64,000 bases of DNA from an uncultured Alphaproteobacteria bacterium (lineage in GTDB: Bacteria; Pseudomonadota; Alphaproteobacteria; MPNO01; UBA2964). Below are positions 55,909-59,218 of this stretch, piece after piece (within the stretch, counting starts at the first letter, position 1; each line of letters begins with the position of its first letter). The position numbers were made by a program, and so were the translations under genes. The notes below the pieces were generated by a model, which saw only the letters and a list, made by a program, of their open reading frames with translations, was not told the DNA's origin and did no database searches. The stretch is taken from assembly GCA_951812775.1 (NCBI GenBank), contig OX638326.1, positions 3,049,391 through 3,113,390 on the forward strand, read 5' to 3'.

Positions 55909-56757
55909 CTAGCCCTCGATCAATTCGGCAGGGAAGGTGCCGGTGAAGCTGATGGCAGTCGGACCGATCATGATAACATGATCGTCAGCCCGCCAATCGA
56001 TTGTTAGCGTTCCGCCATCAAGTTCGACCAGTACGGTGCGCCCGGTCAAATCTCGCCGATGCGCCGATACAGCTGCCGCGCAGGCACCGGTTCCACAAGC
56101 CTGGGTTATACCAGCACCGCGCTCCCATACACGCAAACGCAGTGCCCTAGGGTTTTTGATTTCGGCGATCCCAATATTAGCGCGTTCCGGAAACAACTCG
56201 TGATGTTCCAACGTCGGCCCCACCTCGCCAAGAGGAACAGCGGTGGCATCATCAACAAAGAAGACACAATGCGGGTTACCCAAGTTTACCGCCATGGGAT
56301 CGTCCAGGGTCCAGTTTTCGATATCAAGATGCAGCGTGTCTTGCTCGCTCGACAAAGGAATGTCCTGCCAGCTAAAGCGGGGTCTGCCCATATCGACGGC
56401 GACCATATTGTTCGGGTATTGCTCCGCTGTGAGAAGCCCGGCGCCGGTACCTATATTTGCGCTAGGACGCTCGTTTTCAGCCATAAGCAGATCGGCGACG
56501 CATCTCGTCGCATTGCCACATGCATCGACCTGGGACCCATCGGCATTAAAAATACGCATAAAGACGTCGGCATCCTGAAGTGAACCGCTTGTGGGCGTCG
56601 GTTCAAGCAGGATTAACTGATCGCAGCCAACGCCTGTATGGCGGTCCGCAATAGCTTGGGCCTGCGCCGCCGAGAGGTCGCGTGTCGCATTCCTCGTATC
56701 GATGACGACAAAATCATTGCCGAGGCCATGCATTTTTGTGAATGCAATATCAGTCAT
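55909..56757 (-). CDS. dapF: Diaminopimelate epimerase
   Basis: DapF converts LL- to meso-diaminopimelate for lysine and peptidoglycan synthesis. The 282 residues have the family start KMHGLGNDFVVID and the two catalytic cysteines in VDACGNATRC (C80) and TQACGTGACAAA. PHCVFFVDD and ERGAG are further family segments. It ends 3 bases before mtaB. Complete. Confidence 0.96.
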   Translation of the reverse strand: MTDIAFTKMHGLGNDFVVIDTRNATRDLSAAQAQAIADRHTGVGCDQLILLEPTPTSGSLQDADVFMRIFNADGSQVDACGNATRCVADLLMAENERPSANIGTGAGLLTAEQYPNNMVAVDMGRPRFSWQDIPLSSEQDTLHLDIENWTLDDPMAVNLGNPHCVFFVDDATAVPLGEVGPTLEHHELFPERANIGIAEIKNPRALRLRVWERGAGITQACGTGACAAAVSAHRRDLTGRTVLVELDGGTLTIDWRADDHVIMIGPTAISFTGTFPAELIEG

Positions 56758-56871: not shown

Positions 56872-57687
56872 TTATACCTCAATAAGGTCGAGAACGGTTC
56901 CGTCATTTTCAATGCAAGCGGCTAGCAATGCACCCTCTCGACCACATCCGGCATCCAAACTGATCGTGAAGGGCTTTTCGACAAGCCCTTTGGCTTCTGG
57001 GTCAAAACCGCGGATTACTTTGTCAAATCCACTATAAGAACTGTCGACCGTATCGAACGCCCGAGCCCCCCACCAAAACGTGTCGGCTTGCGCATCTAGT
57101 GGTCTTTCCGGGTCGATGCCCCGACTGACGAATAAAATCGTCGCTTCACGTGTATATGCAGCATGCTTGAGACTACTGAGCCATTCCTGATGGCCTGCTG
57201 CCTGAAAGGCAGCGCGAAGCTTTGTAGTCCAGTGGGTTATCGCCATTGGGCCCTGACGGATGGCGGCTCTGGCATCCTCTGCGCTACTGTCATAGGCATC
57301 AAGTGTCGCGCCTATTCCTTGGTCAAGCATCCACTCCAGGACGTCTGACGGGTCGACCGCAAATTGCAGCTGTAAAAGCCGTTGCCACATTTCTTCCTGG
57401 GCGCCGCGTAGTATCACCACATCGTGGGTGAACATATTGCGTCGGCTAAGAATGAGACGGCGGAACGTTAGCACGACATCGACCGTGGTGCGTACGTTCT
57501 CGCCACGACCTAAAATATTCCCCAGATACAGCAATCTGTCGCCCGGAATAAATTTATCCGCAACAGCAGTATGCAAGTTGTTCAAGCGATTGACATCGCC
57601 GTGGATAGACGAAATAGCCCAGATGCGTTGGGCGCAGTGCAAAACGGCAAAAATGGCTGGCTCTGTCATGTCTGGAATTAGGCGCAT
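56872..57687 (-). CDS. Metallophosphoesterase-fold protein lacking catalytic residues
   Basis: The 271-residue protein has the layout of bacterial Ser/Thr-phosphatase-like metallophosphoesterases, but every metal motif is altered. D-x-H-G is S27-I-H-G. GD-x2-DRG is G56-N-I-L-G-R-G. GNHE is G95-A-Q-E. The later VHAG is VSRG and the GHT motif is absent. The flanking text (GDRLLYLGNILGRG, ERPLDAQADTFWWGARAF) still follows the fold. It should be inactive as a phosphatase and may bind a ligand or partner. It lies alone between dapF and ffh, divergent from ffh. Confidence 0.7.
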   Translation of the reverse strand: MRLIPDMTEPAIFAVLHCAQRIWAISSIHGDVNRLNNLHTAVADKFIPGDRLLYLGNILGRGENVRTTVDVVLTFRRLILSRRNMFTHDVVILRGAQEEMWQRLLQLQFAVDPSDVLEWMLDQGIGATLDAYDSSAEDARAAIRQGPMAITHWTTKLRAAFQAAGHQEWLSSLKHAAYTREATILFVSRGIDPERPLDAQADTFWWGARAFDTVDSSYSGFDKVIRGFDPEAKGLVEKPFTISLDAGCGREGALLAACIENDGTVLDLIEV

Positions 57688-57868
57688 TTCCCTTTGAAGC
57701 CGTCAAGGACGGAGCCACTGCTATTTGCTTGACTTTCTTCATTTCGGGCGTAAATTCCCCGCCAACCCAAGGCCAGTACAGGTTTTTTCGCCCAGGGGTG
57801 ACCATCGGTCTGCGAGTGTTCGCACACCGATGCGTTTTGCATTGAAGTGAATTTGTTGATGAGCATCT

Positions 57869-59218
57869 ATGTTTGACACGCTGAGCACACGTCTATCTGA
57901 CGTCTTTGACAAGCTGAAGAAGCGCGGCGCGCTTTCCGAAGCCGATGTCACGTCAGCTTTGCGCGAAATTCGTGTGGCCTTGCTCGAAGCGGATGTTGCG
58001 CTGCCCGTCGTTAAAGGCTTCATCGACGCCGTCCGGGAACGCGCGGTTGGTGAAGAAGTTGTCCGCAGCGTTACGCCGGGTCAGATGGTGGTCAAGATTG
58101 TCAATGACCATCTGACGGAAATGCTCGGAGGCGATCAGGTCGAGATAAACCTCGCCGCTGCGCCGCCCGTCGCCATTATGATGGTTGGTTTGCAAGGGTC
58201 CGGTAAAACAACTTCGACTGCAAAACTTGCTATTCACCTTCGCGACCAGTTTCGCAAAAAGACATTGATGGCATCGCTTGATGTTCGTCGACCGGCAGCA
58301 CAACAGCAGCTGCAGGTGTTGGGCACCGACGCTGATATCCCAACATTGCTGATCGTACCCTTCGAAACACCGGAGATGATCACCAACCGGGCGATGGATA
58401 CTGCGCGCAAGGAAGGCTATGACGTCGTCCTGCTCGATACTGCCGGTCGGCTTCACATTGATGACGATCTGATGGATGAAGCGGCATCGGTTCACAAGAT
58501 TGCCAAGCCGGTGGAAACACTTTTTGTCGCCGATGCGATGACCGGTCAGGATGCGGTTAATGCCGCAGAGGCTTTTCATAAGAAGCTCAATGTAACCGGT
58601 ATCGTTCTAACCCGGATCGATGGCGATGCGCGTGGCGGCGCGGCGCTTTCGGTCCGTGCGGTTACAGGCTGCCCGATCAAACTGCTGGGCACCGGCGAAA
58701 AGCTCGATGCGCTTGAGGTGTTCCACCCGGAACGGATTGCGTCACGCATTCTCGGAATGGGTGATGTTGTCACGCTGGTCGAGAAAGCCAGCGAGGTTGT
58801 CGAGGAAGAAGAAGCTGAAAAGCTGGCGGCCAAGATCCAGAAGGGGCAGTTCGACTTTGAAGATTTTGCCAAGCAGTTAAGTCAGGTCCGCAAGATGGGT
58901 GGTATGGGCGGCATCATGGGTATGTTGCCGGGCTCGCAGAAAGTTAAAGCCCAGATGGGGGCTGCCAACGTCGATGACAAAGCACTTGCGCGACAGGAAG
59001 CTATCATTTTGTCGATGACGCCTAAGGAACGACAGAATCCAAAACTATTTAATGGCTCGCGCCGCCGCCGCGTAGCAGCTGGTGCAGGAACGACTGTTCA
59101 AGAAGTCAATCGATTGCTCAAACAGTTCCAGCAAATGAGCAAAATGATGAAACGTATGAACAAGCTCGGCCAGAAAGGCATGATGCGTCACGGTATGCCC
59201 GGCATGATGGGCCAGTGA
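57869..59218 (+). CDS. ffh: Signal recognition particle protein Ffh
   Basis: Ffh binds signal sequences and 4.5S RNA and delivers ribosomes to FtsY. The 449 residues have an N domain, a G domain with GLQGSGKTTSTAKLA, DVRRPAAQQQL, DTAGRLHIDD and TRIDGDARGG. A Met-rich M domain follows (GGMGGIMGMLPGS, SRRRRVAAGAGTTVQEVNRL). It leads the operon-like run to rplS. Confidence 0.97.
   Translation: MFDTLSTRLSDVFDKLKKRGALSEADVTSALREIRVALLEADVALPVVKGFIDAVRERAVGEEVVRSVTPGQMVVKIVNDHLTEMLGGDQVEINLAAAPPVAIMMVGLQGSGKTTSTAKLAIHLRDQFRKKTLMASLDVRRPAAQQQLQVLGTDADIPTLLIVPFETPEMITNRAMDTARKEGYDVVLLDTAGRLHIDDDLMDEAASVHKIAKPVETLFVADAMTGQDAVNAAEAFHKKLNVTGIVLTRIDGDARGGAALSVRAVTGCPIKLLGTGEKLDALEVFHPERIASRILGMGDVVTLVEKASEVVEEEEAEKLAAKIQKGQFDFEDFAKQLSQVRKMGGMGGIMGMLPGSQKVKAQMGAANVDDKALARQEAIILSMTPKERQNPKLFNGSRRRRVAAGAGTTVQEVNRLLKQFQQMSKMMKRMNKLGQKGMMRHGMPGMMGQ

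Follow-up and report, generated by a model that had tools for sequence, protein, structure and literature searches.

What function is left to a metallophosphoesterase-like gene whose catalytic motifs have been replaced and whose reading frame is intact? The question is raised by a minus-strand gene at positions 56872-57687 of a 64,000-nucleotide stretch of DNA from an uncultured Alphaproteobacteria bacterium (the window; GenBank assembly GCA_951812775.1, contig OX638326.1, positions 3,049,391 to 3,113,390). We propose that this gene encodes a PPP-fold pseudophosphatase, a non-hydrolytic binding regulator in the sphere of CarD (CdnL) and RNA polymerase, and we give this explanation as a whole a probability of about 0.6. 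That the product is a conserved PPP-fold pseudoenzyme or binding protein is very probable; its action in transcription control with CarD, which we read from gene order, is a tentative proposal at somewhat less than even odds.

None of the PPP-enzyme motifs GDxHG, GDxxDRG and GNH(E/D) was found in the window protein, where GDxHG reads SSIHG, GDxxDRG reads GNILGRG, GNHE reads GAQE and GH reads GF. The former motif 1 (S26-D31, SSIHGD; 57592-57609, minus strand as for all motifs given here) has lost its ligand Asp and kept His29 of IHG. At the former motif 2 (G56-G62, GNILGRG; 57502-57522) the ligand Asp is replaced by Asn and the catalytic Asp of DRG by Gly, and at the former motif 3 (R94-M100, RGAQEEM; 57388-57408), which is near-invariant in the family, Ala replaces the ligand Asn and Gln the catalytic His of GNHE. 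The ligand His of the former motif 4, HAG (S188-P193, SRGIDP; 57109-57126), is Ser, while roughly half of the family members have His there, and that of the former motif 5, GH (R226-P230, RGFDP; 56998-57012), is Phe. His29 is the one canonical ligand left of six, the other five being changed, and both catalytic residues are gone; an earlier note on this DNA had described all metal-ligand motifs as replaced, which holds for the motifs and not for every ligand. The additional motif of bacterial PPPs, (I/L/V)D(S/T)G (PMC535813), is partly kept as DAGCG (D245-G249; 56941-56955).

The same losses were detected throughout the family, for which the searches covered the genome_contigs collection and the taxonomic family, order and class to which the window belongs. 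The first ligand Asp (D27 position; Ala in 97, Ser in 45), the catalytic Asp (D60 position; Gly in 150) and the catalytic His (H97 position; Gln in 142) are absent from all 151 family sequences. Of the 151, 123 retain His29, 74 have His at position 188, 13 have the second ligand Asp, 5 the last ligand His and 4 the ligand Asn. Counted by sequence, 14 keep no ligand, 60 keep one, 72 two and 5 three, and none keeps more; active PPP paralogues retain all six. The loss is common to the whole family, its most divergent members included, and because no member examined has the binuclear metal site, that site was lost before the family radiated. No member carries intact D-x-H, GDxxDRG and GNHE motifs, the state in orthologues that the earlier note had tied to a decaying copy, and the altered state is itself conserved across the family.

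The fold is predicted to have survived this loss, as the earlier note had supposed. An AlphaFold2 model built on the 104-row family alignment (predicted local distance difference test score, pLDDT, 96 for the window protein) was compared by Foldseek and VIA-align and matched the PnkP phosphatase domain (Z 21.4 over 214 residues), RLPH2 (21.2), the ApaH-like 2qjc (20.3), lambda phosphatase (19.4) and ApaH (18.0) in PDB. The model places the window protein in the PPP / calcineurin-like fold, and the family is homologous to bacterial PPP-type metallophosphoesterases. In Pfam and NCBIfam the window protein had no match above a curated cut-off, and neither library has a model that recognises the family; PF00149 (Metallophos) did not match it and matched 2 of the 104 family members at E <= 0.01. 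Identity as ApaH (NF001204) was rejected at 17.3 bits vs a cut-off of 176, with 36 of the 104 members as weak matches at E <= 0.01.

The family is ancient, occurs in a large part of Alphaproteobacteria and is unnamed in the family libraries searched. Orthologue identities range from 77% to about 30%, and genome_contigs gave 126 confirmed stretches, the best 80 of the 126 at 44-77% identity. Of 385 genomes sampled from the class, 134 carry a clear orthologous gene (E 1.6e-25 or better), some of these carriers being 1.2-1.6 Mb, and the 13 genomes with a strong match in the phylum sample all came from the same class. The named carriers, mostly Rhodospirillales sensu lato, include Azospirillum, Skermanella, Inquilinus, Magnetospirillum, Telmatospirillum, Kiloniella, Terasakiella and Aestuariispira. 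The plasmid collection contained no orthologue, only distant metallophosphoesterases at 26-27% identity. Four loci labelled Rhizobium (L057), Mycobacterium (L081), Verrucomicrobiales (L027) and Anaerolineae (L075) have copies resembling the Rhodospirillales ones, and their labels or bins are probably wrong. One genome, G010, has a second copy (L016 and L184, G010:C234), 43% identical and carD-linked, besides the copy at the ffh site; this is probably a contaminating contig.

Gene order connects the family to CarD. Outside the window's order, 144 loci had sufficient sequence on the upstream side to be scored; in 121 of them the gene immediately follows a same-strand carD (cdnL), usually in the order ferredoxin, carD, pseudophosphatase gene. 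The 121 loci span many families and include members that share just 31-40% identity with the window protein. Of 101 loci, 33 have a sigma-32 gene downstream. Nine further loci have a divergent ffh upstream, and 14 of the 144 have neither neighbour, some owing to a contig end or a homology-search shortfall.

The window itself belongs to the ffh group. The gene is flanked by dapF (55909-56757, minus strand) and ffh (57869-59218, plus strand), the names of DapF and Ffh, as of FtsY and MtaB nearby, coming from NCBIfam equivalogs; these and the reading of the frame confirmed the earlier description of the place of the gene and its 271 open codons. Sequences from the ffh site group together in a single clade (support 100/99), all from the window's order, and the window's own genome has ferredoxin and carD intact at C1:2462403, with the pseudophosphatase gene absent there. 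The dapF/ffh location is most simply a derived relocation within the window's order, and its neighbours would be uninformative on function because the gene moved there within that order. We dropped the cell wall or secretion role that the earlier note had hinted at from this position, which is confined to one clade, while most other lineages have ferredoxin and carD upstream.

Caulobacter CdnL is described as binding RNA polymerase, its depletion impairing rRNA transcription (PMC5324124), and its clearance during starvation as depending on SpoT and ClpXP (PMC10769358); word searches of two Caulobacter CdnL papers found no mention of a neighbour of the pseudophosphatase kind. Given these properties of CdnL, a modulator of CarD would be plausible. 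We suggest that the pseudophosphatase would be incapable of phosphoester hydrolysis by the PPP mechanism, that its remodelled pocket would bind a ligand or protein partner instead, and that the process served, judging from gene order, would be transcription control with CarD, perhaps with sigma-32 too, in growth or stress adaptation. Direct regulation of CarD, RNA polymerase or sigma-32, for instance by nucleotide or phosphate sensing in the dead pocket, which in much of Alphaproteobacteria would make transcription responsive to nutrient stress or heat, is an unlikely and speculative extension.

Could the gene simply be a phosphatase copy, once active and now decaying? The catalytic motifs lost from the window protein would point that way, but the orthologues refute this reading and leave it hardly credible: frames are intact and the identical altered motifs recur family-wide, the substitute motif LRGxQEEM is near-invariant, and against the closest relatives nonsynonymous divergence (dN 0.13) is far below synonymous divergence (dS 2.3, or saturated and beyond estimation). 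The gene is on these grounds not decaying and has been maintained under purifying selection since the metal site was lost. Residues W23, G56, G95, E98, G124 and G165 are invariant, and near-invariance extends from the substitute motif to W23, FWWG and the RG in motif 5. Conservation in the six loops of the former active site, with pocket positions taken from the motif alignment, exceeds that of the remaining chain (3 of 258 circular mask shifts did equally well), which is consistent with a pocket that still serves in binding. Strong conservation of several polar pocket residues, together with the retained bacterial PPP Asp motif, would also suit a hydrolase with a non-canonical site made of His29, Asn57, Gln97, Glu98 and Asp245; such an enzyme is nevertheless very improbable, with at most three of the six ligands in any member and neither catalytic residue in any of the 151.

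A more serious, if minority, alternative is a pseudoenzyme with a function that has nothing to do with CarD, such as a scaffold or ligand sensor, the old neighbourhood being kept by chance or shared expression. Terminator-like hairpins in 43 of the 122 spacers between carD and the gene, the place of the gene away from carD in the window's order and the 14 loci with neither neighbour all favour it; same-strand carD directly upstream across so many families and at such low identities argues against it. Several observations count against our own proposal as well. An operon with carD was not established, given the hairpins in a third of spacers and a spacing often >100 nt; the window's lineage lost the carD linkage yet kept the gene; and gene order is the sole link to CarD. 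Structural glycines explain part of the loop conservation, and His188 in about half of the orthologues and His29 in most may permit single-metal binding. The non-hydrolytic binding regulator near CarD is the explanation we favour, and the earlier idea of a binding or regulatory pseudoenzyme survives in it as an intact protein with the fold kept and the metal site gone, conserved in orthologues, without the cell wall or secretion link.

The frame is intact over its 271 codons. The codon-1 ATG is not kept in close relatives and the codon-7 ATG (window 57669) is, so that the true start is probably codon 7, giving a protein of 265 amino acids. An Rfam ffh small RNA (RF01793, 40.6 bits) was detected at 57788-57840 on the plus strand, upstream of ffh, in the intergenic stretch common to ffh and the pseudophosphatase gene. 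Some relatives have a gap of ~0.9 kb between the pseudophosphatase gene and dapF; in one of them (L181) it contains a 279-codon frame (L181:4948-5784) resembling a secreted protein, absent from the equivalent place in the window.

PPP-fold pseudoenzymes are, to our knowledge, little known in bacteria, and a literature search, which was not exhaustive, found no paper describing a comparable PPP pseudophosphatase from bacteria or one linked to CarD. The family described here is a bacterial PPP-fold pseudophosphatase family with a conserved carD linkage, maintained in much of a class. If the linkage is functional, it points to a novel protein that regulates a global RNA polymerase factor, and the presence of the family in genera that can be cultured, Magnetospirillum and Azospirillum among them, makes the carD link testable.

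Protist PPP relatives have been called pseudophosphatases (PMC2175518, PMC3827238); these are eukaryotic and share that term with the family described here. The closest comparison within the genome is its own active PPP paralogue (L018:1441-2199, PF00149; GDIHG, GDYVDRG, GNHEQM), which is homologous to the window family across 215 columns at 27% identity (hhalign probability 98.9%, E 2.8e-17), but has all six ligands intact and falls in a group of its own (100/100), set off by a long branch. The bacterial PPPs at large, namely lambda phosphatase, ApaH, the Rhizobiales-like and the Shewanella-like phosphatases (PMC535813), share its fold along almost the entire chain of the window protein (Z 18-21), with aligned motif positions and (I/L/V)D(S/T)G partly kept in the window family, and differ from it in the binuclear metal site, which the window family lacks.
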